Virus record (IMG/VR): IMGVR_UViG_3300025483_000045
Coordinates: 1-32,402 of that record
Direction: 5' to 3' (one strand)
Source of the DNA: a virus
DNA length: 32,402 nucleotides
The notes under the pieces were generated by a model, which saw nothing but the letters and a program-made list of their open reading frames with translations, had not been told where the DNA came from and did no database searches. This document shows positions 1,234 through 29,227 of this stretch, in pieces. Positions within the stretch are counted from its first letter, which is position 1; the number at the start of each line of letters is the position of its first letter. The position numbers and the translations under genes are program-made.

Positions 1234-2925
1234 TTAGTTTATTTTGACTTCGTAGTAAGTGCCGTTAACAAACGGATTAGATACGTTATTTATTGTCACT
1301 AATAAGTTTGCTCCAAAATCTAAAAATGATGCGCCAGCCAAACTTATAACTTGTGTAGCTCCGCCTCGCGGAGTTATGCGAATTTCGTTTAGTACGCTAT
1401 AGTCAATTGAACTACCCTTAATAGCAAAAGTAAAAACATTATTTGCCCAATAAAAATCTACTATGTTACTTTGTCTTTGTTTTACGGAAGCGCTTAAAGT
1501 ATTCATAGCTCCATAATCTGTTGGCAAAGTAACAGTAGAGTTTTCACCCAGGGTTGTAGTAACTTGTGGATAAGGTGATAGTGACGTTATAGGATTATTG
1601 TCTGCTGGGTAATATTCAGTTATTAAGCCAGCTGGATAATTTTGAGAATAACCGATCTTTCCAGAAGCAGTACCAGCTTGCATCCAAAAAGTTGAAAAAG
1701 CATCTCTAGGTATTACTTCAACACTGTACTTTTCACCACTAACAAAACTCACATTTTGCCCATCCGGTAGACCAGAATATTTAATTCCAAAAAGTGTCTC
1801 TGTTACAGTTATATGTTCTATATCCTGGCATCGAATAGTGTGATCAAAAGAAGGTGTGTCTATACCTTTAATTCTAAACTCAGTAAACATCCAAGGATTA
1901 GATACCGGCCTTTGCAAAGCATTAAAATTTCTAACAGAACCTACATCTAATTCAGGCAATACGGCAGGTCCAATTGGCCCTGATAATTGACCAGACCATC
2001 CACCTGCATTGTTTCTTGAACAAGAAGATAATGTAAATTCATCGTTATCTCTACCCCTGTTTACAACCTGAATTTTATCTCCAACTTTCCATATTTGATT
2101 AGTTTGTTTTGTTGCGTATATTCCTGCATATATGCCGGCGTTAAAGAATTCTGAAAACGCTAAATCAACTGGTGTTAAACTTTTACGGTCTTGTGATATC
2201 TCTAATTCAATTTCATTATTTTTTGTTTGTAAATTTACTATTTTTATACGGCCTGGGTTATCTGCGTATCTATTTCCTACAACTCGACCAAACTTAGCTC
2301 CGCTTGATCCGCCTCCAGGTAACAAGCCCCAAACATCACCATTAGGCAAAGATCCTGGCAATACAATAGTGTAAGTAAGAATAGATCCATTGCTATCAAC
2401 AGTTAAAATATTAATTCCAAAAGTATCAGCGGTCCCAGAAGGTTGTCCTGTAACTGCAGAACTTATTGAATCGCCAGCTACATATCCAGTCCCACCATCT
2501 ATTAAAACTATATCTCCAACTGTTTTAGAGCCTTTATAAAAATAAGCGTCATAACCAGAAGGACTTGTCATTTGTACAACACTTCCAGCGCGATAACCCT
2601 GGCCCCCAGTCTTTAATGACCAATTAGAATTTGCATAATATGCTTTTAAAGATCCTGAAGTTAAAACTGTGTAATTTGTAAATCCTGTACCAGCACTTAC
2701 TAAAACCCATGTATCTCTTGAAAACTGACCACTTAATCCTAATGATCCAGAAACAGTAGATCCAAAACCTTGTTGAGCTGTAAGCACTTTAGTTGGGTTA
2801 ATATCATAATCTGAGTTTAAATACCCTATAGTACCTGCAGCGCCATTAGCTATAAATTCCCAGGTTCTCGTTAAAGAAGATATTGTTGCTGCAGACGTTG
2901 CCGATACACCAATTATATTACTCAT
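1234..2925 (-). CDS. Putative distal tail fibre or structural protein with GxGY repeats, 563 aa
   Basis: Large beta-rich, Ser/Thr/Gly/Asn-rich protein without recognised catalytic motifs. Residues about 70-200 hold repeated turns of the form G-x-G-[FY]-x-x-x-[DS] (GTGFTNY, GQGYRAGS, GTGYVAGD), a repeat type common in phage tail and cell-surface proteins and also present in the 1077-residue protein at 22681-25914. It overlaps the preceding fibre gene by four bases (ATGA), so the two are likely translationally coupled. It is the last gene of the late operon. I infer a tail fibre tip or receptor-binding accessory from gene order; homology alone does not prove it. Confidence 0.65.
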   Translation of the reverse strand: MSNIIGVSATSAATISSLTRTWEFIANGAAGTIGYLNSDYDINPTKVLTAQQGFGSTVSGSLGLSGQFSRDTWVLVSAGTGFTNYTVLTSGSLKAYYANSNWSLKTGGQGYRAGSVVQMTSPSGYDAYFYKGSKTVGDIVLIDGGTGYVAGDSISSAVTGQPSGTADTFGINILTVDSNGSILTYTIVLPGSLPNGDVWGLLPGGGSSGAKFGRVVGNRYADNPGRIKIVNLQTKNNEIELEISQDRKSLTPVDLAFSEFFNAGIYAGIYATKQTNQIWKVGDKIQVVNRGRDNDEFTLSSCSRNNAGGWSGQLSGPIGPAVLPELDVGSVRNFNALQRPVSNPWMFTEFRIKGIDTPSFDHTIRCQDIEHITVTETLFGIKYSGLPDGQNVSFVSGEKYSVEVIPRDAFSTFWMQAGTASGKIGYSQNYPAGLITEYYPADNNPITSLSPYPQVTTTLGENSTVTLPTDYGAMNTLSASVKQRQSNIVDFYWANNVFTFAIKGSSIDYSVLNEIRITPRGGATQVISLAGASFLDFGANLLVTINNVSNPFVNGTYYEVKIN

Positions 2926-3803
2926 AAATTAAGTACCGCTGTATTTCCGTAAACTGCCCATGTGTCAGTAGCAATTTTTTGAAGTGTAGCAACACCACCT
3001 TTCATTATTTTCTTTGCAGCTGCAGAGGGCTGATTTATGCCATCGTAAAAATATAATTCAACACTGCCACTGGCAGGCGATATATTAATTTGCGAAGTTC
3101 CACGGTTAGAAAAATTTATAATAGTTCCAATTGGAAAAGCTATAGAAGAATTTGCTGGAACAACAACTGAAAATAAACTTGTTCTACTAGACTCAATTAA
3201 GGTATTAGCATCTGACAATGCCAGGGTTTTGTTTGAAGCAGATAAGTTAGTAATATTCTGTACTGATACTGCAGCAAAATAACTTGGGTTTGCTAATGCT
3301 AAATAATTTTTTGTAACTGCATCCTGTCCGTCTACTGGATCTGATACATTTTTTATGGCAATAGATTCTGCATTCCAGTCGCCACCAGTTACACCTTTAG
3401 TAATACTTCGGCCTAAGAGCTCTTCTACTTGCTGCAGTAACATAATAAGAAGATCTTGCTCATCATTGTAAGTTACAGATAAAAAGTCACCTTGTTCCTG
3501 GATATCAGTTATACGTTGCGTAGGCTCGTTTCTACGAATAGTAATAATATCGCCAACTGAAGCGCCAGCTTGCAAAGTTATTTTTTTAAGAACTCCAGCA
3601 ACATTACCCGCACCAGTAACAGTGTAGTTAGTTGTAAGTGTAAGTAGATCTGCAGCATCATCCGGTGATTGACCTGCCGGAGTTAAATATACATCAAGGC
3701 TTGCGTTAGTAAAAAACGGCCAAGTGATAGTAAAGTCTACCTGGCCCGCTGTTGCTGTGTACTGCTCTGTAGGGCTTACATCGTTTACGATTATATGAGC
3801 CAT
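2922..3803 (-). CDS. Tail fibre protein with T7 gp17-like N-terminus, 293 aa
   Basis: The first 135 or so residues match the T7 gp17 N-terminal (Phage_T7_tail) pattern: a short strand, 'YTATAGQVDFTITWPFF', 'NYTVTGAG', 'GDIITIRRNEPTQRITD' and 'EQDLLIMLLQQVEELLGRSI'. This domain anchors fibres to the tail. A short linker follows, then a C-terminal beta region (residues about 180-293) with a pattern often found in phage adhesion proteins ('GTIINFSNRGTSQINISPA', 'GGVATLQKIATDTWAVYG'). It is much shorter than T7 gp17 (553 aa), so it probably acts as an adaptor for the 563-residue protein encoded directly after it with a 4-bp overlap. Confidence 0.8.
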   Translation of the reverse strand: MAHIIVNDVSPTEQYTATAGQVDFTITWPFFTNASLDVYLTPAGQSPDDAADLLTLTTNYTVTGAGNVAGVLKKITLQAGASVGDIITIRRNEPTQRITDIQEQGDFLSVTYNDEQDLLIMLLQQVEELLGRSITKGVTGGDWNAESIAIKNVSDPVDGQDAVTKNYLALANPSYFAAVSVQNITNLSASNKTLALSDANTLIESSRTSLFSVVVPANSSIAFPIGTIINFSNRGTSQINISPASGSVELYFYDGINQPSAAAKKIMKGGVATLQKIATDTWAVYGNTAVLNL

Positions 3804-3805
3804 TT

Positions 3806-6800
3806 TTAGTTAGTCTCCTGAAATTTGTATTTTGGCGTATTAGATCTTGTATTAACTTCACGCTGTAAATCTGGGTATTCAATTAAAACCTGGGCTTTAG
3901 CTGCAAGTCTGTACTGGTTTAGTATTGACTGTATAAATGCCGCTTTACCGCCATCTTCGCCATCCGTAAACATATTATACATTCCAGAAGACTGGTGCTG
4001 ACCAGTCACTAATAAATTTAGTTCTTCCTGTAAAGTTCCGCCTTGGCTAACAAATCCATTTGTAGTTATTGGCGCACCATTTTGAGTTTTTGTAATCTCA
4101 TTACCGGCAAGTTGGACCATTCTATAATATGCTGCTGGGTAATCTTTTCTAAGTTTTACCTCAATAGATCCGCCACCATACGGCTTGCTAAAAGACTGAT
4201 TTCCACCAGGCAATTTAACAACTTTTCTCAATCTACTTAACTCTATATCTATAGGTTGTGGCTTGATAGATGATTTATAAAACGGCGATACAGCATCATA
4301 TACCTTGCCCATATCTGACCGGCGAGTTCTTTCGTTACCCCATCGGTCATATCTCGCAGGCAATTGGTTTGATAATCCAGGCGTTCTAGCTTTGATCATA
4401 TCTGCCATTGTCTGAGCATGACGCATAACTGGATCTTGCATCTTTGCATATTCGTTAACGGCTGAAGGTACAGCCAGGGTAGATACTATTTTGTTAAAAT
4501 ATCTATCTGCTTTTACAGTAGGATCATTCATCATTTCAAAGAAGTCTGAAACGCCTGTCATATAATTTTGTACTGACATAGAAGAAGCAACCGCTGCCGA
4601 AGTAGCAACCATTAGCTCTTTGATCTCATCCGTAGGCTCCTCGCCTTCTGTCGCTTGTAATATCTCTGTTACTGTCGCCATCATAGAAAGTAATCCGCCA
4701 ATAGGCTCCATTCCTCTATATGAAACATGCTTGAACTCACCTGTATTTGGATCTTCCCATCTTACTGAGTAAGGCTTGTGAGTTAATAACCATTCTCTAC
4801 GATCATCTGCATCTGCAGGTCCGTTACCAGTTAAATGCCCGCTCATCGTTAGATCTGCACCAACTAACATTATTGCAGTACCCATAGTTTGTTGAGCGAT
4901 AGCCATTTCTTTTGCTTCGCCACCAGCATTAATTGCATCACGATATCTTTTAACAACCGGCGCTAAAGGTGTGCGCTCGAAAGTATAAAGACCAATATTA
5001 TATGGGGTATTTCTAAACGGCTGAACTATCTTACCTAACACTGGTAACTGACTGATAGAATTCCATGCAACATTAAACTCAGTTTTTTCTGGGATATCTG
5101 TAAATACCTGTCTTTTACCCTGCGCTTGTGCAGTTAGAATCATATACTCTTCAGGATTGTTTAACAGCTCTTCCATCTGCTGTTGGCGCATGGGCTCAGT
5201 AATTTCACCCCTTTCAATCATTTCATCAACTTTCTTAAATGCTAATCTATGAATTTCCATATCAAAATTCATTGTTGTAAAAAGCTCATCGCTTGCCGTT
5301 AGAGCTCTACCTGGAACACTTAAAGTACCGTTTACAACTGCAGCAATATTGTATTTAATTGTGCCAGGCTCTAAATTCCATCGCTGGGGATCTAAACCGG
5401 TAATCATTGGTTGGTCAACTTTTCCTACACCAAAACCTGATTTGTTATTTTTAACAGCCTGCCATACTGTACCCATTTCTCCGGTTTCTTTAGATACCCT
5501 TAATCCTCGAATCATACCCATTGTCATACCGTAAAGGCTTGCTGCGGCTTCACCTTTTTGAATGGTGTCCATGCCTGGCATTCTAGCAGCTAATGACAAT
5601 TCTGCTGGGCGTAGCATTGTTGTTAAAGCGTTGCCAAAAAAGTTACGCGCATGAGTTTTTGGTCCTGACAATAAAGCAAAATACCAGGCTTGCGCTACAG
5701 CATCACGGGTTTTTGCCCATGCAGTTCCGTTTACGAATGCTTCGACTTGCTCTGCAGATCCAGCTTCGCTTAAAGCTACATGACGTTTTGCAATTTCTTG
5801 TATGTTAGTTTCGTTGCTTAACTCGTCTACAAGAGTTGTTAATTGCTTATCATCTGCGGGCATTCTCCAGGCATTTAAAGCTCTGGCTGTTTCGGCTCTA
5901 GCACCTAAAACTTCTCTCTGTATTGCAGAATGGATAACTAACTGACGCTTGTATGCAATCATGTTTAAAGGACTTGGGTTTAATGCCACTTCATTAGCAA
6001 GATCCATAGACCTTCTGCCAGACTGCGCCCAAAGGTTTCTTACTGCAACTGTTTGCGCTGCATTAAGAGGCTCACCAACACGTCTATCCGCTAGTACCTG
6101 GAAGGCATCTAACTTGTCTGCTTCTAAAGAAGTTTGGTCCCATCCTACTTTGCCACGTCTTGCAGCATTTATTTCAGATATATCTTCATCTGCCAGGTTT
6201 TGAATAAGCTCTTTAACATCATCATCCGTATTGATTCTAGCAAAGTTAATCTCCACTTCATCAATAGATCCGGCTCCCATGTTATATGCAGGTGCATCTG
6301 GATCACCAGCTTCACTTTTGAAAGCATCAAATCTTTGCTTTTGAATATCTACAGCTTCTTCCGCTACTTCTTGTGCAGTCTGCTCTTTAAACCCTTTTCT
6401 AGCTGCGTAGAATGTGCCAATTGAGGCTAAAGCAGCTTTGCTTGCCTTGTTATTTAACATTGCTTTAAATAATTTTTTGCTTGTTTCTGATCCTACAGCT
6501 GCAGTTACTCCCTCAAAACCTGCTGCAACACCAACTACGTCAAGCGTAGTTTTTAGCCTGGCTTCTGCTTCAGAATCTTTAGTAGTTATCCAGTCCAAAA
6601 ATTCTGACTCAACACCTAAATCTTGGAGCAATTTACCAAACTGGTCCTCAAACGGGTCAAAAGCAGTATTAGCAACAAGGGCTTCTGCAGCAAGTGTTCG
6701 TCCTGCAGCACTTAATCCTTTTTCAGCTGTCCATCCAATTGATTTAAGTCCTTTTTGAAATTGTGTAAACGGAACAAAAAATTGAACTCCCATTTTTGTT

Positions 6801-9800
6801 ACGTCTTCTGCAACGTTTTCTGGCTGCCCCATAGCGGCTTCTAACACTCTAGCAACTGTTGCCGGTGCAGACTCTTGATTTATATCTACACCTTCGGGAA
6901 GCTCACCAGTTTCACTAAAGACATTAAACTGTTCATTGGTTATATCGCCATCCATAAGCAACTCGATGCCAGCATAATATTTATCGTTAGGCATACCTTT
7001 ATTCATCTCAGGCATTAAATTCTGTGTAAAATCTGTAAATGAATTTAAAGTCTTATCAATGTTTTGTACAGCTTCCGCTAAACCGCCTACAGCCTGTGCA
7101 GCAATACCAGGCAATGCAGTTATAGCACTAATTGGAATTCCCATACCGCCAGGTGCACCAGAAGCCAACATCATATCTACATCAAACTGCTCCATTTCTG
7201 CTAGTTGCTTATCCCATTCTACTTGTGGGTCAACTGACTCAAACGTCCCTGTTGCCCTTTCATAAGCAGCCTGCTCACGATCTGCAAAATCCTGCGACAT
7301 ATTTGCATCAATATCTTTAGCATAAGATTCTTCGCTTGCAATTGCAGCTGCAGCTACGGCGCTTGTACCGCCAATAATCTTTCCGTTTTTAGATTTAATC
7401 GTAATTAAATTGTCATCGAATACAACATAATTTTTAGATCCTAAAGATCTTGAATCACGAATAGCCTTTGTAAGTCTTGGGCTTGGATCCCAATCGCTAA
7501 TATTCCCACCAAAAGCAGCTTCAATTGCTTCTGCAGGATAATCAAAGCCCAGGTAATCATCTGCCTCTAAAGCCTCTAAAAGTTCTGTTTGCTTTGCACT
7601 AAAATGCCCATCATCAATTAACTCTCTAACTTCATCAAAACCAGCATCATCTGGCAATACTTCGCGCCATCTTTTTGCAATCATTTTGATAGGTAGGTTT
7701 CTTGACGCACCATCTGCAAATTGTATACCTTGAATGCCCAATGCTTTTAAGGCATCACTTGCTTCTTTAGGGTTTGTGGCGTTTGGTTTGATTGTGTAAT
7801 AAAGTTTTCTGCCTTCTTTAGTACCTAAATCAATACCAGCTTCAGACAATCTTTCTTTAACAAAATCACTTTGCTCATCTAAAGGTAGATCCCAATCTAA
7901 CATTTGATCTGGTTCGGCATCAATTTCTACGTTATAAAGATTGCCTAGCTGCGGTTCAATATTTGCAGGATCAACATCTTTAAGATCATTAATTGTTTTG
8001 ACATAAGTATCAATATATTCCTGGCCGCCCATATCAATAATGTAGGCATCACCATTCTTTAGATCAGCTTGATAGCTTTCTAATAATTCTAAAGCACCTT
8101 TTTCGCCGTTTTCACGCAACTCAGATATCGCTTTAAATTGTGGCGTACCTCTATCGTAGACAACTCCACCCACGTTAAAACCGTTTAGGTGTGTTTCGTT
8201 ACTTAAAGACTCTCGATAAGACTCACCGGTTTCTTTTCTACCACCAAAGTAAGAGCCATAACCATAAGCCTGAGCACCTTCGCCACTCCCAATATAGTTA
8301 GAATCAAATTTGTTAAAACTATGCGGGCTTCCATGCCAGGCATTGATAACAGTTTTTCCCAACGATCCAGCACTTGCTTCACTATCTGAGCTAAATGAAG
8401 CAAAGCCACCAGCTACAGCCATAGCTTCAACAATATGCTGCTTATTATTCATTACCACTTCAGTAAAGCCTAAAGCCGCTGCAGGAATTGCGTAAAGCAA
8501 TTTCATATCTGCATAGCCTTTCTGCTTACTCTTAGTTTTCATTACATCAAACACTGCAACAACATTACCCTGGGGAGTAGACTGCAGCATTGCGCTATAA
8601 CCGTTTTCATCTATAAGATTAGATAGCTCGTTATAACGCTCTTGGCGTGATCTTCTGCCGCCGTAAATAGTTTTTTCAGCTATCTTAGAAAATAAGTTAT
8701 CTGGATCTGAAGCAATATCGTAAATCTGTTCTACTCGTATATCTACAGAATGCGGATTAGGCCCTAAGCCAACTTCGCCAGCATAAGGATTTTCTTTAGT
8801 ATTAACGCCACCATACCAGCGCTTTGCAAAATCATCACTTGCTGCCAGGTTACGCTCTGATACTGTACGACCTGATAAACCACTACCGTAGTATTCTGGA
8901 TCAATACGGTCTAGATTTTGGCGACTTCCTGACATATGACTTAGTGTGACAATACCATCATCATCTACTGCGCCAGCTAACCTTCCTAAAACGCCATCGT
9001 TACCAGCTCGCTGGATATAGCTTAGTCTTTGATCGCCCAAAGGTGTATTTTCAACAACGGACCAATTAGGAAGCAATCCAGTTTTTTGTTGTGCGAATGT
9101 AGTATCATCGAATTTCGCCGTTCGGTTAATATCGCCTTGTGGGCCATAGTTCAACCAGGAATTTTGGCCGCGAGTTTCTACCGCCACCGCCCTCATAGCT
9201 AAAGGTGAAAACATGCCGCTGTGACTTTGGTAAGCCATTTCTTCACCTGCAGCACGAAAACCTACGCCAGACTTAGCGTGACCATAATAATCGTGTACAG
9301 CTCTGAACATATCATTGAAAAGTAAAGGCTCACCATCTAAAACATATTTAGATTCACCTACTAGCGGGTTGTTCTTTGGGTCCATTACATCCCAGGTTTC
9401 ATTGCCTGATCCGTAACCGTCTTTTGTTGGAAATATACCTATACGCTTATTCTCACTGATATCACGCAACGCTGCATAAGGTGATCCGGCGTATGGGTTT
9501 TCACCTCTGATAAAAAATGGAGTTACGCCATCTTTTAGCATTTGCTCATACTGAGCTTCTGTTTCTTTAATTAAAGCATTATATGCTTTTTTTACCCTGG
9601 GGCTGTTAGGGTTTTGCTTCATGTAATCGAACTCTTCAGCTACAGCCTCACTGAATATTTCATCATTTTTTTTGTAAACTTTTGGCTCACTATAAGGTAT
9701 TGAAGCATTGCTAGTGTATTCAATTGCGCTGTTCTTGATATCAGAATTCTGACCAACATAAGCAGGGCCAAGATCTGTTATGTTTGGGGTAGAAGGTGCT

Positions 9801-10060
9801 CCAGGTAGTGCAGGTTGATCACCAATAATTGCATAGCCTTCTGCTGCAGCTTTGGACCGTATAATTTTTTGCTGCTCGATATCAGCGCCTTTTACAGTGG
9901 GAGAGTATTCCACCGGCACATCAAAGCCTTGATTAGCCATCCTATCTTTTTGCGATAACTGATCTAAGAATTCTAAGTTATTGACGTTCTTAGTATCTGG
10001 TTTAACAAATTTATCTTTGACGGATTTTACTACGTCTACTATAGGATCATACTTAGCCAT
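3806..10060 (-). CDS. Giant polyvalent internal virion (ejection) protein, 2084 aa, with ART-like domains
   Basis: It occupies the place of the largest T7 internal virion protein (gp16). Residues about 165-310 form a conserved phage domain with H256-D-Y-Y-G-H261, GEE (272-274) and ETRGQN (295-300). Residues about 365-450 begin LSHMSG and continue IDPEYYGSGLSGRT, resembling an ADP-ribosyltransferase (ART)-type fold of phage polyvalent proteins. Residues about 571-895 match the ART-PolyVal type: AWHGSPHSFNKF (H576), GEGAQAYGYGSYF (Y604), LDWDLPLDEQ, LGIQGIQFAD and NYVVFDDNLITI. A hydrophobic segment lies near 519-535. The C-terminal half has features of large polyvalent proteins, such as LLSGPKTHARNFFGN (1463-1477) and RYDRWGN (about 1903). 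No transglycosylase motif is seen. I infer that it is packaged and injected, and modifies host targets. Family assignments are from memory of motifs and were not searched. Confidence 0.8.
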   Translation of the reverse strand: MAKYDPIVDVVKSVKDKFVKPDTKNVNNLEFLDQLSQKDRMANQGFDVPVEYSPTVKGADIEQQKIIRSKAAAEGYAIIGDQPALPGAPSTPNITDLGPAYVGQNSDIKNSAIEYTSNASIPYSEPKVYKKNDEIFSEAVAEEFDYMKQNPNSPRVKKAYNALIKETEAQYEQMLKDGVTPFFIRGENPYAGSPYAALRDISENKRIGIFPTKDGYGSGNETWDVMDPKNNPLVGESKYVLDGEPLLFNDMFRAVHDYYGHAKSGVGFRAAGEEMAYQSHSGMFSPLAMRAVAVETRGQNSWLNYGPQGDINRTAKFDDTTFAQQKTGLLPNWSVVENTPLGDQRLSYIQRAGNDGVLGRLAGAVDDDGIVTLSHMSGSRQNLDRIDPEYYGSGLSGRTVSERNLAASDDFAKRWYGGVNTKENPYAGEVGLGPNPHSVDIRVEQIYDIASDPDNLFSKIAEKTIYGGRRSRQERYNELSNLIDENGYSAMLQSTPQGNVVAVFDVMKTKSKQKGYADMKLLYAIPAAALGFTEVVMNNKQHIVEAMAVAGGFASFSSDSEASAGSLGKTVINAWHGSPHSFNKFDSNYIGSGEGAQAYGYGSYFGGRKETGESYRESLSNETHLNGFNVGGVVYDRGTPQFKAISELRENGEKGALELLESYQADLKNGDAYIIDMGGQEYIDTYVKTINDLKDVDPANIEPQLGNLYNVEIDAEPDQMLDWDLPLDEQSDFVKERLSEAGIDLGTKEGRKLYYTIKPNATNPKEASDALKALGIQGIQFADGASRNLPIKMIAKRWREVLPDDAGFDEVRELIDDGHFSAKQTELLEALEADDYLGFDYPAEAIEAAFGGNISDWDPSPRLTKAIRDSRSLGSKNYVVFDDNLITIKSKNGKIIGGTSAVAAAAIASEESYAKDIDANMSQDFADREQAAYERATGTFESVDPQVEWDKQLAEMEQFDVDMMLASGAPGGMGIPISAITALPGIAAQAVGGLAEAVQNIDKTLNSFTDFTQNLMPEMNKGMPNDKYYAGIELLMDGDITNEQFNVFSETGELPEGVDINQESAPATVARVLEAAMGQPENVAEDVTKMGVQFFVPFTQFQKGLKSIGWTAEKGLSAAGRTLAAEALVANTAFDPFEDQFGKLLQDLGVESEFLDWITTKDSEAEARLKTTLDVVGVAAGFEGVTAAVGSETSKKLFKAMLNNKASKAALASIGTFYAARKGFKEQTAQEVAEEAVDIQKQRFDAFKSEAGDPDAPAYNMGAGSIDEVEINFARINTDDDVKELIQNLADEDISEINAARRGKVGWDQTSLEADKLDAFQVLADRRVGEPLNAAQTVAVRNLWAQSGRRSMDLANEVALNPSPLNMIAYKRQLVIHSAIQREVLGARAETARALNAWRMPADDKQLTTLVDELSNETNIQEIAKRHVALSEAGSAEQVEAFVNGTAWAKTRDAVAQAWYFALLSGPKTHARNFFGNALTTMLRPAELSLAARMPGMDTIQKGEAAASLYGMTMGMIRGLRVSKETGEMGTVWQAVKNNKSGFGVGKVDQPMITGLDPQRWNLEPGTIKYNIAAVVNGTLSVPGRALTASDELFTTMNFDMEIHRLAFKKVDEMIERGEITEPMRQQQMEELLNNPEEYMILTAQAQGKRQVFTDIPEKTEFNVAWNSISQLPVLGKIVQPFRNTPYNIGLYTFERTPLAPVVKRYRDAINAGGEAKEMAIAQQTMGTAIMLVGADLTMSGHLTGNGPADADDRREWLLTHKPYSVRWEDPNTGEFKHVSYRGMEPIGGLLSMMATVTEILQATEGEEPTDEIKELMVATSAAVASSMSVQNYMTGVSDFFEMMNDPTVKADRYFNKIVSTLAVPSAVNEYAKMQDPVMRHAQTMADMIKARTPGLSNQLPARYDRWGNERTRRSDMGKVYDAVSPFYKSSIKPQPIDIELSRLRKVVKLPGGNQSFSKPYGGGSIEVKLRKDYPAAYYRMVQLAGNEITKTQNGAPITTNGFVSQGGTLQEELNLLVTGQHQSSGMYNMFTDGEDGGKAAFIQSILNQYRLAAKAQVLIEYPDLQREVNTRSNTPKYKFQETN

Positions 10061-10070
10061 GTATTTACTC

Positions 10071-11555
10071 TTATAAGTTTTGTTGTGATTGCGATATACT
10101 TTCTAAAGCATTTACTGCGCCTGGTGCAATATCTTGCAGGATTTTCTCTGCAGCAATTCTAGCCTCATCGGTAGTAGCCGTTGGGTTTTGTCTTTTCCAG
10201 CTTAGATAAGCCTGTTTAGCTTTGTATACTGAAGCTGTGTAGTTTCTCACTGATAAACCTCTAAAGGTTTCAATAGCACCATCATATACGCCCATGCCTT
10301 CATCAAACCGTGAAGCATCTGACATATCTATTAAAGTTTTATAATTAGTAGAAGATAACCTACCTTCTCTTACTAATTCTATTGATTGTGCTTTTATAGC
10401 ATCCATTGCTTCAAAGTCTTGCGCAACAATAGCATCACTTAAATCTGCGAAGAGTCCATTGTATGCTACTACGTTCTGCTCTACTACTTTACCCCTGGCT
10501 AATTCTGACCATTGCTTAAATTCAGTGGGGCTAAGATCTGACCTAAATGCTTGCACCTGATCAGGCGTAATATCATTACCCATATCAACCAGGGTTTTAT
10601 TAGCTTCTTGATTGCGCTGAACTAAATTAGCTTCTTCAGCTAAACCTGCATCATTATCTATTTTAATAGTTAATGCCTGGGTATCTGCATATTCCTGTAG
10701 ATAAGATTGCATATCAGTGGCGGCTTGTACTGGTGTCCAACCTGACATTTTTTTAATCTGGCTATTACTACCATCTGTTATCTGACGGTTTCTGGTTTTA
10801 TTAATATACTTCTGAGCACCAGGTAAATCATCTTGATCTATAAAATCCTGAATAATTGAATTGTTAGCAGCTTTAACAAAATCTTGGCGAATCCCTCTTT
10901 TCTCATTTACCTTCTCTAGCTCAGTTAGATTAACTGAACCATCAATAAGAAAATCATAATCTTCAACGGTTCGTTGAATTCTGGTCTCATCAAAATTAAC
11001 ATCCGTAACAGACTCCATAATACTCTGCCTGGAGGCAGTAATAGTATCAACTTCTACCTGCTTCGCTGCAGCCATAGAATCAGCCATTGCGCGTTTTCTT
11101 ATCTCTGCTTCATACCTTGCACTTACCGTATCGTACTGTCTAGCTGCAACACCGGCTAGTGGCCCTGCATCATCAAGAAGGCTAGTTCTTCGTGCGTCTT
11201 TAGCAGCAACATAAGCCTGGGGGTTATCTTTGTATTGTGTAGCAAGAACACCTAGCTCGTTAACAGAATCATTTAATACTGATTGCTCATAAGCATTAGA
11301 CACTTGCCGGTTGTACAGCTGGGCCGCTTTGTTACCACGATCACTTAGCGCTGGAGCGCCCGTAGCAGGGTCATAAGCATCTGCCTGCTTCTGTGCTTCG
11401 TTAGTATTTTTTCTTCCATACGCTTGCGCTGTTGCGCTTAAAGCAGTGCTAGTAAAACCAGCTAATGAATTCTGTATAGAAGCGTATTGATTAGAAGTAT
11501 TAACCGGATTTAACTGGTACGGCTGATAGTCCCGTTGATATCTTTTAGCAGCCAT
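10071..11555 (-). CDS. Internal virion protein, gp15-like position, 494 aa
   Basis: Mostly helical, Ala/Gln/Asp-rich protein without catalytic motifs. Starts MAAKRYQRDYQPYQLNP, then long amphipathic helices. By gene order (nozzle, small helical protein, this protein, giant protein, fibre) it is the counterpart of T7 gp15, part of the core that is ejected to form a DNA channel across the envelope. Sequence similarity to gp15 itself is not obvious to me. It starts at the stop of the 152-residue gene (11555), and ten bases separate its stop from the giant gene's start, consistent with co-expression. Confidence 0.65.
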   Translation of the reverse strand: MAAKRYQRDYQPYQLNPVNTSNQYASIQNSLAGFTSTALSATAQAYGRKNTNEAQKQADAYDPATGAPALSDRGNKAAQLYNRQVSNAYEQSVLNDSVNELGVLATQYKDNPQAYVAAKDARRTSLLDDAGPLAGVAARQYDTVSARYEAEIRKRAMADSMAAAKQVEVDTITASRQSIMESVTDVNFDETRIQRTVEDYDFLIDGSVNLTELEKVNEKRGIRQDFVKAANNSIIQDFIDQDDLPGAQKYINKTRNRQITDGSNSQIKKMSGWTPVQAATDMQSYLQEYADTQALTIKIDNDAGLAEEANLVQRNQEANKTLVDMGNDITPDQVQAFRSDLSPTEFKQWSELARGKVVEQNVVAYNGLFADLSDAIVAQDFEAMDAIKAQSIELVREGRLSSTNYKTLIDMSDASRFDEGMGVYDGAIETFRGLSVRNYTASVYKAKQAYLSWKRQNPTATTDEARIAAEKILQDIAPGAVNALESISQSQQNL

Positions 11556-12013
11556 TATCCTACATCCGTCTTAGTTAGGCCCGTCCCACCCATACTGTAG
11601 GCAGCATTAGTTCCAGATATCAGTGTTTGACCAGCTGCAATATTGCCCCGTCTTCTTGCCAGGCTTGCATTAGTCTTAGCACTTTTCCGCAGATTACTCG
11701 CATTTATAGTGGCACCTAAGTCTGATCTGGTTTGCTCTGCTTCTGCTTGACCTATATCTGTCAACATAATGTTATAAGTAGATCCAGACAATCCTGCTCC
11801 CGAAGCGCCAGATCCAGCCATCTGGGATGACATTGCCTGCAACAACTTTTCTTTTCTGGCAATTGTCTGCTCATTAGCTGCGCTCTTGGCCTGCTCTGCT
11901 GCCATTGCTGCATCGTTTTCTATAGCTACAGCTTCCGCACTTGCAGCTTTACGCTGCATAACCATGCTACCGGCTGTCATTGCTATCATCATTGGTACTG
12001 CTGCTGCGCCCAT
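11555..12013 (-). CDS. Internal virion protein, gp14-like, 152 aa
   Basis: Begins with a hydrophobic segment (AAAVPMMIAMTAGSMVMQ), then a long Ala/Glu/Lys-rich helix, a Gly/Ser turn region (GSGASGAGLSGSTYN) and a second helical part. This 'hydrophobic start, long coiled helix, GSGxxxSG' layout is usual for the small ejection proteins of T7-type podoviruses (gp14-like), which insert in the outer membrane. It shares its start base with the stop of the nozzle gene (12013) and its end with the start of the next gene (11555), so the three are probably coupled. Confidence 0.7.
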   Translation of the reverse strand: MGAAAVPMMIAMTAGSMVMQRKAASAEAVAIENDAAMAAEQAKSAANEQTIARKEKLLQAMSSQMAGSGASGAGLSGSTYNIMLTDIGQAEAEQTRSDLGATINASNLRKSAKTNASLARRRGNIAAGQTLISGTNAAYSMGGTGLTKTDVG

Positions 12014-14037
12014 TACCCATTTACCTCTAGTGCTATACCCAGTATGGTCATCCCAACTGGATCAGTATGATTAATTGTAATCTGTTGTGTCTTTGCCCAT
12101 CCTAATATGGGGGTGTCTTTTCTGCCAGTAAAAGGTGTTGGTACAGTATCAAACGGATCTCCTACACGTCTATCTGGCAATCTATTGCCGTTAACAATTA
12201 AGCCTAAAGAATTGCTTAACTCTAAAGTAACTTTGTTTACTCTGATTTCTTGCGCCAGGTTTCTACCTGCACCTGAATCCTGAGATATCGGCATAGTCTT
12301 CAAAGTAGCATCATACTCCAATCCTATACGAACACTAACTACTGAACGCTCTAAAGTTATCTGCCCACTTGCAACAACTCGATCTAAAAGTACAGCGCCA
12401 TCACCTACGACTTTAACAGTCTTACCCTCCAGGTGTGCAAGGCCGGTAACAACATTACTGTTAACAGCTGGATTATAGATACTTGAATCAGTGTAAAAGT
12501 CTTCATCACCTTTTTCTAAATAGTAAACAGTTGCGCCATTAACAACACGCTTACAAACCATATACAAATCACTAAACGCTACCGCTATACTTGTGTAGTT
12601 ACCATCAGTATTCCATATCGACCAGGCTGATACATTTTGATCTTTAAGAGTATTAAAGACCGCCATAGTCCCATCTGAATTTACAGCATGAATGTAGTTT
12701 GCATCTTCTGAAGAAGTACCACGAACCGCATCTAATTCAATAGGGTCTCGTATTAAAGATGGAGCTAAATAAGATATTGACGGTGCAGTAAACTTTCTTC
12801 CCTGCTCAGTAAACATTTCCCGTATTGCTTTACCAGTCCTCTGTACAAAAGTAACGCTACCTTCGATATCAGTAGGCTTTACTGCTGCAGCCCCATACCT
12901 GGTGTGATTTAATATTCTTATATTAGCGGGTGTAATTGGATCAAACTCATTCTGGAATACTACGAACTCACCACCAGTAGTAAACACTTGCAAGGTAGTA
13001 GAAGAGTAGATAGCTGTGATCTTGTTGTTCTGATCTGTCTGCAAACTGTACTGTATACCCTGGTCATCACGCGAACGGCCAAAAGCAAAGTTAAAATACG
13101 AATTAACAAAAGAACCCCATACGGTAGTAGGTAATGCTTGTGATCCACCAAACCAAAGCCTGCCTTCGTGAAAAGTGCAAGTTTTAGGCCACCCTCTAGT
13201 ATTGGACCATACTGGTTCAGTTCTAGGGGAGCCATCTTGTGTTGTGGTTACTGCCACTGAGCCAGATCCGCCATCAATTCTACGACCTGACATTTGACGC
13301 CAATTTTTAGCTGCTGTGCCTGCGAATGTAACATCAAATACATTCGCGGAAGCTCTAACAACTGTTATGCCTGTATCTGGTGTATTTACCAGATCTAACA
13401 ATACATCACGGATATCATCTGCATGACTGGCATTATCGCTGTATGTAAGCGTCTCAGTATCAATACTTTCCAGGTTTAATTTATAGCCAGCGCCAGTCGC
13501 AAAGCTGCCGCTAAAACTTAATCTTTGAATCTCCGATATTGCAGTAGGTGACTGAGAATCATTAAAATCATTTTCAGGAATACTATCATTGGTAAAAGCA
13601 ACATCAACAATAGTAAAGTCTGCATCCGTAGCTCCTCTTGTGATAATTCTAGGAACATGAAGAGGATGAGTAATAAGCATATCATCGCCAGACTGCGCAA
13701 AATCTACTTCAAATAATTGCGCTTGTGTATAGGTAGTAACAATCGTATCTACCATGATATCTGTATCGGCGCGTAAAACTGATATCTTGTTGTTGGTGAA
13801 AGCCAAAACGTAACGCTGCTCTGACGACATAACTAAAGGAATTATTCTGCAAGCACCGTCTAATGCTGTAATAAACTTAAAGCCTTCTCTACGTCTAGCT
13901 CCACCCTGGGGTATAAACTTAATGTTATCCGCCTTCTCTACACCCTGGAAGTATTGCTGAGTGTCCAGGCGAGCTCGCATAGTCTCATCTAAAACGCCAT
14001 TGTTAAAACTGGATTGCAGCTGATACGTCTTTGGCAT
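12013..14037 (-). CDS. Tail nozzle protein (tail tubular protein B, T7 gp12-like), 674 aa
   Basis: The N-terminus has the hallmark of the family: 'QSSFNNGVLDETMRARLDTQQYFQGVEKADN' shortened as SFNNGVLDE...R.D...Y..G, then 'PQGGARRREGFKFI'. In the middle, 'PVWSNTRGWPKTCTFHEGRLWFGGS' matches the conserved GWP...RL-x-FGG segment. The product forms the nozzle at the tail end in complex with the gp11-like ring. At 674 residues it is slightly shorter than T7 gp12 (794). It follows the gp11-like gene by three bases, the normal order, and continues into the internal virion genes. Confidence 0.9.
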   Translation of the reverse strand: MPKTYQLQSSFNNGVLDETMRARLDTQQYFQGVEKADNIKFIPQGGARRREGFKFITALDGACRIIPLVMSSEQRYVLAFTNNKISVLRADTDIMVDTIVTTYTQAQLFEVDFAQSGDDMLITHPLHVPRIITRGATDADFTIVDVAFTNDSIPENDFNDSQSPTAISEIQRLSFSGSFATGAGYKLNLESIDTETLTYSDNASHADDIRDVLLDLVNTPDTGITVVRASANVFDVTFAGTAAKNWRQMSGRRIDGGSGSVAVTTTQDGSPRTEPVWSNTRGWPKTCTFHEGRLWFGGSQALPTTVWGSFVNSYFNFAFGRSRDDQGIQYSLQTDQNNKITAIYSSTTLQVFTTGGEFVVFQNEFDPITPANIRILNHTRYGAAAVKPTDIEGSVTFVQRTGKAIREMFTEQGRKFTAPSISYLAPSLIRDPIELDAVRGTSSEDANYIHAVNSDGTMAVFNTLKDQNVSAWSIWNTDGNYTSIAVAFSDLYMVCKRVVNGATVYYLEKGDEDFYTDSSIYNPAVNSNVVTGLAHLEGKTVKVVGDGAVLLDRVVASGQITLERSVVSVRIGLEYDATLKTMPISQDSGAGRNLAQEIRVNKVTLELSNSLGLIVNGNRLPDRRVGDPFDTVPTPFTGRKDTPILGWAKTQQITINHTDPVGMTILGIALEVNG

Positions 14038-14040
14038 AAA

Positions 14041-14589
14041 TTAAGACCTTACTTGAACATACGGGCGACTTACTATTGGAGTTGAAGGACGACCTTGCGC
14101 ATCTTTAAATGCAGCCTTCTTATATGAATCTATTGCCGTTTCCTGCATAGCTTGTCGCATGGTTTGGTTATTGGTAATAGATAATGCAAACTTCTCAGCC
14201 AGGTGCGCTGCCAGGCATTCAACAAAGTAAGCAGGGAATGCGCTTTCATCTGGTCTAAATATATAGTCCAGCTGTAAAGAATTTTGGTTAGAGTATATTT
14301 TGTCTTCATATATTTCGTATGAAGTCTTAGGGTAAACCCGAATAGGCATTAACAAATCACTAGGCAATTGAAACGCATTGTTCCATTCGTTTAACGGTGT
14401 AGCTGTTAGTTTACTTAGTGAGGCTTTACCTACAGCAAACCGCCATCTTGTAGCAGTAAGCAAAGAGTCCCTGGTTGTATCGTAAAGGTTAGAGGCAACA
14501 ACACCTGACACACCCTCATCGAAAGAGTTTATAGGCGCTTCGCCAATTAATAATAAAGCCTGGGAAACAATATCAAACTTACTCGACAT
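14041..14589 (-). CDS. Tail adaptor protein (tail tubular protein A, T7 gp11-like), 182 aa
   Basis: Matches the gp11 family pattern: N-terminal 'FDIVSQALLLIGEAPINSFDE', 'A-x-x-LYDTTRDSLLTATRWRFA' and a later 'FPAYFVECLAAHLAEKFA' helix. Members form a ring under the portal that gates the tail. Its length is close to T7 gp11 (196 aa). It is the first gene after the terminator at 14608-14651. I see no strong separate promoter, so it probably depends on read-through from the capsid unit. Confidence 0.9.
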   Translation of the reverse strand: MSSKFDIVSQALLLIGEAPINSFDEGVSGVVASNLYDTTRDSLLTATRWRFAVGKASLSKLTATPLNEWNNAFQLPSDLLMPIRVYPKTSYEIYEDKIYSNQNSLQLDYIFRPDESAFPAYFVECLAAHLAEKFALSITNNQTMRQAMQETAIDSYKKAAFKDAQGRPSTPIVSRPYVQVRS

Positions 14590-14607
14590 ACAATATCACC
14601 TATAAAT

Positions 14608-14651
14608 AAAAAAGCGGAGCCTACTACAGTGTGGTGTCCGTAGCAGACTCC
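14608..14651 (-). terminator. Rho-independent terminator after the capsid unit
   Basis: On the minus strand GGAGTCTGCTAC (14651-14640) pairs with GTAGTAGGCTCC (14627-14616): a 12-bp stem with two G-U pairs and a 12-base loop, followed after GC by six T's (14613-14608). It lies just after the 84-residue head gene and before the gp11-like gene. Confidence 0.8.
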
Positions 14652-14677
14652 TATCCTAAGCGGAGAGCAAGGATTAG

Positions 14678-14932
14678 TTACGCAAACGTCAAAGCGCGTG
14701 AAGCAGTCATAGTGTAGTTAACACCGGTAACTGTAAACGTGTTGAAGCCTACGCCATTGTTAGCAATGATTAAGATAACATCATCTGCTTTAACGCCGTA
14801 ATCTACCGCTTTATTGAAGTAGTTAGCTCCACGGATTGCTGCAATTGTTGCGTCTTCTTCGTATTTCCATAAAACACCAGCGTCACTGTTACCGCCGCTG
14901 ATTCGTTCCAAAGTACCATCTGTAAAAGCCAT
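14678..14932 (-). CDS. Small putative head (decoration) protein, 84 aa
   Basis: Compact beta-rich protein: MAFTDGTLERISGGNSDAG at the start, then 'VLWKYEEDATIAAIRGANYF' and 'DVILIIANNGVGFNTFTVTGV'. I do not recognise a named family with certainty; small proteins of this make-up next to podoviral capsid genes are often head structural proteins. It shares one transcription unit with the capsid gene, isolated by terminators at 15995-16017 and 14608-14651, so it should be made at a high level, which fits a decoration or head-stabilising role. The role is inferred from position. Confidence 0.65.
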   Translation of the reverse strand: MAFTDGTLERISGGNSDAGVLWKYEEDATIAAIRGANYFNKAVDYGVKADDVILIIANNGVGFNTFTVTGVNYTMTASRALTFA

Positions 14933-14979
14933 GATTATATTCCTCGAATTAATTAATTAGTTAAAGAAAACTACTGAGA

Positions 14980-15819
14980 TTAAACCTCAGTAGCCTGCAC
15001 TTTAACGATGCCAGTAGGATCAATTTTAGTTGCGCCAGCTTTCATGATGCCGTTAGTCAACCATGAAGTCTTTTCAGCAATATAGTTGATTTCAGTTTTC
15101 ATATCTAAACCAACTGCCATGCCTACTGAATCACGATGATAAGCGAAGCCATCATAAATATTGGCTGCTACAGACAATCCGCCTTCAGCACGAGTACCGA
15201 TAAATTTGAAGGTAAAACCAGCAAACGTATCAATCTGACCTTGCACTAATGTGCGGACTGAATTGTAATCAGCACTTGATACTTCTGTTGTTGCCAACAA
15301 AGAACCAGCTGATTTAGCGTTTAAGATAAAGATACGACCTTCTTCATCTACTTCGTTGTCATCCAGGATCTCTTTAGCTGCTAAGATCTTTGCTAAGTTC
15401 ATACCTGAACCGGCTGCACCAACATTAGTATCAACTGTTCCAGCGAAAGTACCAATATCCAAAGCATCAATAAGTAATTGATCTTTACGGCGACCTAATG
15501 CTTTAGCAATAGATGCAGCAAGTTCTGATTTCTCATCAAAGTTAACTTCAGCCTGGTCAAAGATATCTGTGTATTCTGGAGCATTCCAGTTTTCCAACGC
15601 GCAACTAACTAAGTTGTGCTGGATATCCATTGGCGTAACATCAGCTTGACTAGCTTTTTGGTTAGCCATGCCTTTGCCCATAGTACGGAATTTGTAGATA
15701 TCCGCTACTACGCCTGTGCGAAGTTTACAACAACCATCTAAACGGTTATTTCCTTGATAAACCTGGTGTACTAAGGAATCAAATTCCTGTTGTGCTACTG
15801 ACGATAATGTTTTACTCAT
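14980..15819 (-). CDS. Major capsid protein, 279 aa
   Basis: Resembles the podoviral/siphoviral 'phage capsid protein' family (Phage_capsid_2 type): 'LSSVAQQEFDSLVHQVYQG', 'MANQKASQADVTPMDIQHN', 'WNAPEYTDIFDQAEVNFDEK' and 'AKALGRRKDQLLIDAL', ending with 'GIVKVQATEV'. It should form the HK97-fold shell. The start ATG at 15819 follows a GAGGG ribosome site. It has its own strong promoter (15957-15986) and a structured leader of about 135 nt, and follows the scaffold gene after a terminator, so it is regulated separately from the upstream morphogenesis genes. Confidence 0.9.
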   Translation of the reverse strand: MSKTLSSVAQQEFDSLVHQVYQGNNRLDGCCKLRTGVVADIYKFRTMGKGMANQKASQADVTPMDIQHNLVSCALENWNAPEYTDIFDQAEVNFDEKSELAASIAKALGRRKDQLLIDALDIGTFAGTVDTNVGAAGSGMNLAKILAAKEILDDNEVDEEGRIFILNAKSAGSLLATTEVSSADYNSVRTLVQGQIDTFAGFTFKFIGTRAEGGLSVAANIYDGFAYHRDSVGMAVGLDMKTEINYIAEKTSWLTNGIMKAGATKIDPTGIVKVQATEV

Positions 15820-15885
15820 GGGAAAACCCTCATAAAATATGATTAAAGTTAAATTAGTTTTTAGCTATTTACTTCGGGTGTCCAG

Positions 15886-15940
15886 ATAGGGCCGATTTAA
15901 TAACTTAATTCGTTCCATATCCGGCCTATGAGTATAGGGT
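15886..15940 (-). promoter_or_regulatory. Structured leader of the capsid gene with mutually exclusive pairings
   Basis: Reading the minus strand, three elements occur: ACCCTAT (15940-15934), ATAGGCCGG (15929-15921) and ATCGGCCCTAT (15896-15886). The second can pair with the first (5-bp hairpin, ACTC loop) or with the third (longer, with a bulge), not both. This could be an mRNA-stabilising or switching structure; no known riboswitch is recognised. Confidence 0.35.
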
Positions 15941-15956
15941 ATCGGGGAATTGTTCT

Positions 15957-15986
15957 CTATTATCCTATTGTATAGGCATTTGTCAA
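15957..15986 (-). promoter_or_regulatory. Sigma-70-type promoter for the capsid unit
   Basis: Minus strand: perfect -35 TTGACA (15986-15981), 18-base spacer, -10 TAATAG (15962-15957). It starts a few bases after the terminator that ends the scaffold transcript, about 140 bases before the capsid start codon. Confidence 0.75.
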
Positions 15987-15994
15987 CTGTTTGT

Positions 15995-16017
15995 AAAAAA
16001 AAGGCCCCGAAGGGCCT
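15995..16017 (-). terminator. Rho-independent terminator after the scaffold gene
   Basis: Minus strand: AGGCCC-TTCG-GGGCCT hairpin (16017-16002) with a stable UUCG loop, running directly into a T tract (down to 15995). It is four bases past the scaffold stop codon and just upstream of the capsid promoter. Confidence 0.9.
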
Positions 16018-16021
16018 AACT

Positions 16022-16777
16022 CTATCTTTGGGCATTACCCATCAATCGTTGAACTTTTGCGCGGAATTGCGCATCTGTAGTGTATCTATTCATACCTTTT
16101 GCATCTGTTTCTCTAAACATCGCATCAATATCTTCTTTGGAATAAGCTGCAGCCTGCTGCTCTGTAGGCATTGGCAATGGTGAATTCCTTGATTTATCTA
16201 TCAGCGTTTCAAATAATAAGAGAGTATCAGCATCAGTAACAGCATTAGTAAAAGCATTGAATTGACTCTCATCTAAATTAGCTTTAGCCCAGCTTGATAC
16301 CTGGTTAACACGCGCCTGGCCCTGAGGTATTGAAGCAATCTGCTCTGCAGCATAATCTGCCGCTTCTGCCTGCTCTCTTGCCATCTCTTCTGCAGTGGCG
16401 CTAAAGTAGCCACCTAGCATACGATCAAGTCCTTCTTGTGACATATTCAGTTCTTGCGCAATAGGTGCAATAGCCTGGAATATAGGATCCTGGTCACTAA
16501 AATCGAAGTGTATACCTTCAGGAATATAAAGATCTTCAGGTAGATTAGCACTGTACGTTTCAGGTGCTCCTGTAAAGCCACCAAAGCGAGTTTCAAGCTC
16601 ACGATAAGCCTTTGCCTGCTCTTCTACATTACTGTACTTACCCTGGTTCAGCCACTCAGGTGCTTCTCCAGATCCAGGCATTGAATCATTCCAAGACCAG
16701 GGATCTACCCCACCAGTGGAAATTGCAGTATCTACTTCTGGTTCTTGGACCATGCCGCCATCTAATTCTTCACTCAT
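16022..16777 (-). CDS. Capsid scaffolding protein, 251 aa
   Basis: Acidic, Gln/Glu/Ala-rich, helical protein between portal and capsid genes, where podoviruses encode the scaffold. The N-terminus is disordered and acidic. A 'PEWLNQGKYSNVEEQAKAY' segment followed by 'ELETRFGGFTGAPE' is a pattern I associate with phage capsid assembly proteins, then 'YIPEGIHFDFSDQDPIFQ'. The C-terminus is basic (KVQRLMGNAQR), suited to contact the capsid protein. It is removed or recycled during head maturation in related phages. A terminator follows the stop at once. Confidence 0.8.
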   Translation of the reverse strand: MSEELDGGMVQEPEVDTAISTGGVDPWSWNDSMPGSGEAPEWLNQGKYSNVEEQAKAYRELETRFGGFTGAPETYSANLPEDLYIPEGIHFDFSDQDPIFQAIAPIAQELNMSQEGLDRMLGGYFSATAEEMAREQAEAADYAAEQIASIPQGQARVNQVSSWAKANLDESQFNAFTNAVTDADTLLLFETLIDKSRNSPLPMPTEQQAAAYSKEDIDAMFRETDAKGMNRYTTDAQFRAKVQRLMGNAQR

Positions 16778-16779
16778 AT

Positions 16780-17013
16780 TTACTCTCCACGTTCTGCTGT
16801 ATTTAACTTACTAACTATCATTGATACAAATTCTCTTCGAGTCTCAGCTTTAGCAAGCTCTGACAATGTTGCATCCTCTTGCGTAAACCCACTAAAAACG
16901 TATTTCATAATCCACTCTTCCAGGATTTTAGCCCCTTCTTCGTTTTTTACAAATATATTGTGATATCGCTTTGCATCTGCAAGCATATCCGCTTTTATTC
17001 TTTCGTTCGCCAT
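16780..17013 (-). CDS. Bbp19-like phage protein, 77 aa
   Basis: Small helical protein with the pattern of the Bbp19 family named from Bordetella phage BPP-1: an N-terminal 'KRYHNIFVKNEEGAKILEEW' helix, an aromatic middle 'VFSGFT', and a C-terminal 'AETRREFVSMIVSKL' helix. Family members sit between portal and scaffold genes in many podoviruses, as here, and their function is unknown to me. It lies 15 bases after the portal stop and two bases before the scaffold start. Confidence 0.65.
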   Translation of the reverse strand: MANERIKADMLADAKRYHNIFVKNEEGAKILEEWIMKYVFSGFTQEDATLSELAKAETRREFVSMIVSKLNTAERGE

Positions 17014-17028
17014 ACTATTCTCCGCTTG

Positions 17029-25600: not shown

Positions 25601-25914
25601 ACAACATCAGTTACTTGAAAATTTGTTGTTAGTGAAGTTACCAGGTTTGGATTTGTTGGTGCATATACTGGCAATCCCCTACTTTCAGATCCATTTAAAC
25701 TTGTGAAACTTACAAAAGTTAATGTATCGAAACCGGCAAAAAACTCTTCAGAAGTAAGAGTCCAACCATAATAAACAGCAGAATAATCTGAAGGCGTACT
25801 TATAAGAGGATAGTTAACGAAAGTACCTTTGCCATACAAAATCTGGTCATACTTTGCAGTTATAGTAAGACCATCATCGCTTATCGTAAAACTTTCGATT
25901 TGTGGCTGCGCCAT
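22681..25914 (-). CDS. Large putative tail/structural protein with TIGR03790-like domain, 1077 aa
   Basis: Residues 1-100 resemble a bacterial Ig-like domain (IESFTISDDGLTITAKYDQ). Residues about 150-655 resemble the bacterial TIGR03790 family of unknown function: 'DKILCVYNTAAVYGIYDEPL' at the front, and near the end 'SHGQRGGIWDLAYGASA' (579-595), HEP (601-603), a 'LLRGHTIAAAHIF' helix and WGDGLLQP (642-649), comparable to the GATA...EP...GDPL-x-P signature. Residues 718-785 hold GxGY turns (GSGYAG, GSGFEI, GTGYAMGD) like the 563-residue protein. The rest is beta-rich. The size, beta content and C-terminal Gly-rich run suggest a tail spike or fibre. A caspase-like hydrolase fold is conceivable, but no catalytic Cys is evident. 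Confidence 0.6.
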   Translation of the reverse strand: MAQPQIESFTISDDGLTITAKYDQILYGKGTFVNYPLISTPSDYSAVYYGWTLTSEEFFAGFDTLTFVSFTSLNGSESRGLPVYAPTNPNLVTSLTTNFQVTDVVNSQGEAPVNVTNLVLDTSNTPPATGINPPYDVLDTFNKKVRKQASRDKILCVYNTAAVYGIYDEPLIDAYFDEYGITNHIKVGIDFSIAANTDKRWWTSWGLDVYNQVIDNGIEQVCCGPLSPTAMSKGYNSSIQVDLSNCLGSLKVIKAALEQDNSSGLEEMQIPCGETFYAKEGSNLRNCRVGHYQFSPNLNAGEATGYNGMGTGYTKGSFRASLGSLDTETFGGLLGFPTSIQVPGLHFDQYEPSDLFWSTIAKPYQSRTLRMPCWRIGYFPYAQKPFLPTTTIIRQMVKNSKAAAMPTARNKEEKVLLLNTFYTTPVLKACTDTVYLSELWESLGYTKSFFGATNKPQVISDLTNAPGTVVGDTGLTKYEWQGLNPPANGAMDYIGEIQVTPQADDATNVYLDSVWMEQWDGNGAIGPGMAYRAKSTGTTFPILADIIVDQTRNFNGNYDGSIRNALQCKPGGIRFNATSHGQRGGIWDLAYGASASVASLHEPQAPAVLSYPQMISELLRGHTIAAAHIFTNTNICTSSSVWGDGLLQPYYEQAQEDQTMKRLYRNIYGTPAPGAASWIASSKGIMSGVGVLPVYAGLAPFTATEEFIWPIFPAQITNQGSGYAGTSGITGTGGSGSGFEIVGNNLSGGVYASYQHLGNRGQGTGYAMGDVVTFNGEGGTGMQVTLVPGPLIYKFNVNSNTSDPAYLQKTVTYNAVAGDTIEDICDGLIALINASLAINDPGHRYYATKVQATNGPRNGRYGIRISGRVSGRNYAININKDFYTPDTGAPTNTAVEGYTPKQNFVAGVTDPSGYFFEDPNISYEFFQRDINDNPIFGNGYINISQADATILGLTVPAAGAFAILFNGVTAGETAYLNTQVGAQPKVLKITFKNISRTDRADIVINGTDLDPWINIFNLAVGTFLNSNSGTAQRLLPLVEGETYEVTTEFTAANLGITPGGGGALQPTNIVSHHIVGK

Positions 25915-26909: not shown

Positions 26910-26943
26910 AGTCTGACCTTTATAAAGTCATTTATGCCTACAG

Positions 26944-26949
26944 ATTATA
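26944..26949 (-). promoter_or_regulatory. Possible -10 element upstream of the holin
   Basis: The minus strand reads TATAAT here, 35 bases before the holin start codon, in the 68-base gap after the XhlA-like gene. No good -35 hexamer is seen at the expected distance, so promoter activity is doubtful. Confidence 0.25.
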
Positions 26950-26977
26950 CCTGCAAGCCTGGAATTACCTGTTTGAT

Positions 26978-27169: not shown

Positions 27170-27199
27170 ATTTTATCCAAAATTAAATTGATAGAACTC

Positions 27200-29226: not shown

Positions 29227-29227
29227 T

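Follow-up and report, generated by a model that had tools for sequence, protein, structure and literature searches.

Phages are already known to carry ADP-ribosyltransferases (ARTs) in polyvalent proteins (described since 2017) and as packaged enzymes, and an ART fold is already known in an ejection protein. The account by Iyer et al. 2017 is chiefly concerned with N4 RNA polymerase, metallopeptidase, MuF and conjugative contexts, describes an H-Y-D active site for the ARTs of polyvalent proteins, and makes no mention in its text of internal virion or ejection proteins (PMC5512222). A 2022 survey credited ARTs to only about 3% of podoviruses (PMC9503650). Here we analyse a virus record from IMG/VR, IMGVR_UViG_3300025483_000045, whose full 32,402 bases we call the window, and in it a minus-strand gene (3806..10060) encoding a polyvalent protein of 2084 amino acids that occupies the slot of the T7 ejection protein gp16. 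This one protein joins an ejection part to at least one, and probably two, predicted ARTs, and the phage particle is therefore likely to contain enzymes that modify the host. We judge it fairly probable that the product of this gene is a podophage ejection protein of the gp16 kind, that its N-terminal effector modules, which we call D1, D2 and the ART domain, are packaged and delivered, and that the ART modules among them ADP-ribosylate host proteins.

On sequence homology the C-terminal part is firmly of the gp16 type, because it matches both a virion protein family and annotated internal virion proteins of podophages. It covers about the last 830 residues (about 1250-2084; 3809..6313, minus strand). 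The family phrog_6651, 'internal virion protein', matches residues 1453-1931 with an E value of 1e-37, and tblastn aligns residues ~1270 to the end with annotated proteins of roseo-, pelagi- and cyanopodophages, with E values down to 4e-24. A profile of this part also matches in loci L108, L115, L156, L059 and L039. The same profile found no chain in the PDB, and hence yielded no direct structural homologue for this half of the protein. Whole-protein Pfam and NCBIfam scans of the 2084-residue sequence returned nothing, and no transglycosylase appeared in the Pfam scan; the N-terminal lytic transglycosylase of T7 is absent from P22-like phages and so is not universal to the family (PMC8954989). 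The placement of the protein in the gp16 slot, which the original prediction had proposed, is borne out by this C-terminal homology together with the order of the surrounding genes, given below.

We are confident of the ART fold predicted for residues 571-895 (7376..8350, minus strand), an assignment made because the modelled fold, the order of the active-site residues and the Pfam matches of the relatives agree. The motifs HG (576-577), GYGSYF (600-605) and NYVVFDD (877-883) lie at the residues given for them in the original prediction, and their conservation in 79 relatives, gathered from public phages and IMG/VR, says that they are not there by chance. H576, Y604 and Y615 are invariant across these ~79 relatives (all those with a letter at the position), D783, S786 and R787 are almost always conserved, and about 76% retain D882. 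The window copy has an intact H576-Y604-Y615-D882 site, with its active-site H, Y and D (H576, Y604 and D882) in the expected order. AlphaFold2, run on the ART alignment, gave the ART fold with a mean pLDDT of 88.7 and a pTM of 0.80, so that the original prediction withstood the structural check by which it had proposed to be judged. A Foldseek search of this model against the PDB returned no significant row, and structural matches emerged only on realignment with VIA. The first was 9k3a_B (Z 10.3 over 141 residues, root-mean-square deviation (rmsd) 4.3), followed by many tankyrase chains (Z up to 7.8) and by Chelona toxin, which is homologous to diphtheria toxin (Z 7.1), although a Z near 7-8 by itself could mean a common arrangement only. 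The label ART-PolyVal, also proposed originally, holds for the family and not for the window copy taken alone: PF18760 is matched by 77 of 80 relatives at E<=0.1 (best 1.7e-8), whereas the window copy scores 10.8 bits against a cut-off of 31.2. We therefore write 'ART-PolyVal-like', with membership of the family resting on the relatives and the fold.

Between the conserved DGASR and NYVVFDD the domain carries a helical insert (residues about 790-870, DYLGFDYPAEAIEAAFG; 7451..7693, minus strand), recognised from the alignment, a motif scan and the helices of the model. The insert, with its xLGFDYP motif, is common to five other loci of different origin (L095, MetMV and three more). When PDB sequences were searched with the ART profile, the hits were helices of haemagglutinin and gp41, an artefact of the low complexity of this insert. 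We also rejected the idea that membrane segments with a processing site lie on either side of the ART domain, as the flanks are barely above background hydrophobicity. Viral-contig searches with the single 2084-residue protein as the query found nothing; alignment queries were needed.

The first-ranked structural match, 9k3a_B, is the 1717-residue ORF27L of Anabaena phage A-4L in the cyanophage A4 pre-ejectosome, with its ART-like part at residues 1418-1603; we used 9K3A through its PDB title and sequence. The structure of the A4 pre-ejectosome was reportedly determined by Hou et al. 2025. A podophage ejection protein containing an ART fold has therefore already been seen in a virion, which supports virion residence of such a protein in another podophage. 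Profiles of D1, D2 and the ART domain gave no significant match to the ORF27L sequence. The A4 pre-ejectosome paper is known here as a reference in PMC12810830.

Building on the computed gene slot, C-terminal homology, ART fold, intact catalytic residues and modular recurrence, we infer packaging by homology and, beyond it, cytoplasmic delivery, catalysis and a class of targets. The 2084-residue protein would be packaged in the internal core of the head and would exit before the DNA or together with it; its C-terminal half would help to form a trans-envelope conduit. The long N-terminal extension is assumed to pass into the cytoplasm or to be released, so that the ART modules might reach cytoplasmic NAD+ and mono-ADP-ribosylate host proteins, of defence or transcription, before early gene expression. 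Several points weigh against this reading, one of them being that NAD+ should be scarce in the periplasm. In T7 the gp16 N-terminus (residues 1-228) forms part of the periplasmic tunnel after ejection and it is the C-terminal part that reaches the cytoplasm (PMC8954989); with the same topology here, the ART domain would face a periplasm with little NAD+, and cytoplasmic delivery is thus the weak link. The window copy also falls below the PF18760 cut-off, the acidic residue at D882 is kept in only about three quarters of the relatives, and the phage is uncultured, its protein being predicted from sequence.

The same topology suggests that the N-terminal ART-fold modules could instead be structural parts of the core or of a periplasmic channel that are no longer enzymes, or whose activity is confined to assembly within the head. 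In T7, gp16-N belongs to the wall of the periplasmic tunnel (PMC8954989), and the ART-fold segment of the solved A4 pre-ejectosome is ordered and ends in VINPD, not FDD. We consider this unlikely for the window protein, in view of the invariance of H576, Y604 and Y615 across about 79 diverse relatives and the usual retention of D882. At the level of the alignment, such conservation is what a retained active site would show and scaffolding would not, and the gp16-type protein with N-terminal effectors remains the reading that we favour.

D2 (residues 365-512; 8525..8968, minus strand) appears to be a second ART-like domain, moderately supported by modelling, weaker than 571-895, and not a member of the AcrIF11 family. 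A joint model of residues 88-548 reached a pLDDT of 87.2 and a pTM of 0.86. The best structural match of D2 is AcrIF11 (6KYF), with a Foldseek probability of 0.97 but an E value of 0.034; VIA aligned the two at Z 6.4, with an rmsd of 4.1 over 120 residues. Further matches are MbcT, tankyrases and 8DWQ, the second AcrIF11 structure (both entries are identified as AcrIF11 in PMC13131331). In the A3 alignment H375 and E429 are invariant across the relatives, and D505 is found in 88%. A D2 profile of 27 sequences retrieved no PDB chain at E<=10, and hence no sequence link to AcrIF11; no Pfam or PHROG family matched D2. The expectation of two ART-like domains in this protein was sound, in that structure backs 571-895 strongly and 365-512 moderately, with residues ~100-340 forming a different domain.

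The resemblance of D2 to AcrIF11, an ART that modifies Cas8f (its chemistry is given in PMC12421852), raises a narrower form of the favoured reading, in which the injected ART modules act chiefly as anti-defence agents aimed at one particular host system, for example CRISPR-Cas or NAD-based immunity, and not as enzymes of general host take-over. Polyvalent proteins have been proposed as counter-defence tools (PMC5512222), and AcrIF11 is the nearest fold of D2. However, the D2 profile is without detectable sequence similarity to AcrIF11, and the Z of 6.4 is too low to exclude that the two share no more than a common arrangement, so we hold this narrower form as possible but tentative. It is a good deal less probable still that D2 in particular is a virion-delivered AcrIF11-like ART that shuts off host CRISPR-Cas or another defence complex before phage transcription. 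If it were, D2 would reach the cell together with the DNA, being fused to the ejection machine, whereas anti-CRISPRs are usually made after infection.

D1 (residues 100-340; 9041..9763, minus strand) is a third conserved domain and not an ART, and we assign it no function. Its motif, HDYYGH...GEE...H...ETRGQNSW, includes ten residues that are invariant in 59 relatives (H256, D257, G260, H261, E273, H280, E295, R297, Q299 and N300). No Pfam family was found for D1 in the window copy, in its relatives or in its cellular homologues. In viral contigs it is present in at least 590 confirmed stretches; it also occurs in giant phage proteins and as a free-standing bacterial protein of ~280 amino acids in Bacteroidota, Proteobacteria and Actinobacteria (cellular examples are L191, L194, L197, L207 and L225). 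The sequence pattern HDxxGH...E/H...ETRGQN is suggestive of a metal enzyme, and HDYYGH, with its invariant H, D, G and H, resembles the H-[DE]-x-x-G-H iron motif of the biopterin-dependent aromatic amino acid hydroxylases. An hhalign comparison of D1 with the hydroxylase scored 32.2, whereas 60 column shuffles reached no more than 22.7; the alignment spans only 9 columns, however, and has a probability of 22%. Foldseek with a D1-containing model placed TPH2 second, weakly (E 0.11), and the PF00351 profile matched neither in the window nor in the cellular D1 proteins. An aromatic amino acid hydroxylase is therefore a weak lead for D1.

The joining of effector and ejection modules recurs in other phages. 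ART and internal virion protein are fused in a single open reading frame (ORF) in L108, L115 and L156, and D1 is fused to internal virion protein in L039 and L059. Among the fetched loci the D1-D2-ART series is also present in L025, and the D1-D2 tandem in about twenty. vir555 has a 1974-residue ART protein at the same gene position. Wherever a tail-tube-B gene could be recognised, in 16 ART loci and 11 D1 loci, it invariably lies upstream of the effector ORF on the same strand, 2.0-5.8 kb away; as the loci were chosen by similarity, these counts (16/16 and 11/11) speak of placement and not of abundance. As judged from predicted proteins, the effector-bearing giant-protein arrangement is a recurrent one in many uncultured phages. 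In L166 a 5409-codon open frame (1968-18194) contains two ART copies, and L156 may hold two as well.

The relative L095 shows the modules apart. Its proteins are 66% (capsid), 70% (tail-tube A), 57% (tail-tube B) and 52% (fibre) identical to those of the window phage, and at 7230-11917 the ART is a 592-residue gene of its own, overlapping and directly upstream of a 973-residue gp16-family gene. In the product of the latter the match to phrog_342 begins only at profile position 214, and the stretch in which T7 gp16 has its transglycosylase is therefore missing. Two overlapping genes in this relative could suggest that the long ORF of the window is an artefact of annotation or assembly, in which two genes that normally stand apart, one for an effector and one for an ejection protein, have been run together. 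The window ORF runs from an ATG at 10060 to a stop at 3806 on the minus strand through 2084 uninterrupted codons, and the single-ORF fusions recur, with ART in three loci and D1 in two; an artefact is thus very improbable and largely refuted. Taken together, the fusions, the tandem D1-D2 loci and the separate ART gene of L095 lead us to suggest that effector modules are apparently exchanged, gained and lost, at the N-terminus of gp16, and the separate gene means that the ART module need not be tied to gp16.

The gene order of the window is that of a T7-like virion module. The late genes run on the minus strand as terminase, portal, scaffold-position gene, major capsid, tail-tube A (phrog_394) and tail-tube B (phrog_376), followed on the same strand by a gp14-like internal virion protein (11555..12013, minus strand; phrog_418, E 3e-8), a 494-residue gene in the gp15 slot (10071..11555, minus strand), the 2084-residue gene and, directly downstream of it, a T7-type tail fibre or tail protein (2922..3803, minus strand; phrog_1640, E 4e-33). 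The gp15-slot gene is assigned by position only and has no family match of its own, with weak similarity to the gene in the same slot of L095. A 1077-residue protein without a Pfam match (22681-25914) precedes the terminase genes on their strand. The early region (26090-29934) has lambda/P22-like genes, for an ERF recombinase, NinG and an HTH_36 protein, and encodes an M15 peptidase, beside the T7-like virion module. The window genes that were scanned included no polymerase, and the 32,402 bases no exact terminal repeat.

In the literature searched we found neither the D1-D2-ART series on a gp16-type protein nor the repeated use of the gp16 slot, and the gp16-type slot is not named there as a carrier of ARTs. 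The module series thus appears to be undescribed. The view that this arrangement is little studied stands for the module series itself, and has to be tempered by the recurrence of effector-bearing giant proteins in the same slot. That recurrence suggests that the gp16-type slot deserves a systematic look. If the ART modules do reach the cytoplasm, the ejection machine of a small podophage would itself be an effector-delivery device, and a single protein of 2084 residues would both open the envelope and disarm the cell. What can now be tested is whether the N-terminal modules of gp16-type proteins finish on the periplasmic or the cytoplasmic side of the inner membrane.

Compared with T7 gp16 and its fellow internal virion proteins, the window protein shares gene order, and its C-terminal part is homologous to the P-SSP7-like family; it differs in having D1, D2 and the ART domain ahead of the ejection part, and no transglycosylase was found in it. 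AcrIF11 (6KYF, 8DWQ) is the nearest match to D2 by fold, with a conserved H-x-S and a C-terminal D, whereas D2 has no detected sequence similarity to it and is one module inside a giant protein. T4 Alt is likewise an ART that is packaged in the head and injected (PMC5512222, PMC9503650), but it is a stand-alone protein of the R-S-E clade, from a myophage. A4 ORF27L is similar in bearing an ART-fold domain within a large podophage ejection protein of the virion (the Z of 10.3 over 141 residues given above), but identity is 14% over the aligned part, its ART lies near the C-terminus rather than mid-protein, and it reads VINPD where the window protein has FDD. Closest in active site are the ARTs of polyvalent proteins (PMC5512222; PF18760), with H on strand 1, Y on strand 2 and D on a late strand. 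These too belong to giant multi-domain phage proteins in a virion-gene neighbourhood (PMC5512222), whereas the carrier here is an ejection protein of the T7 gp16 type.

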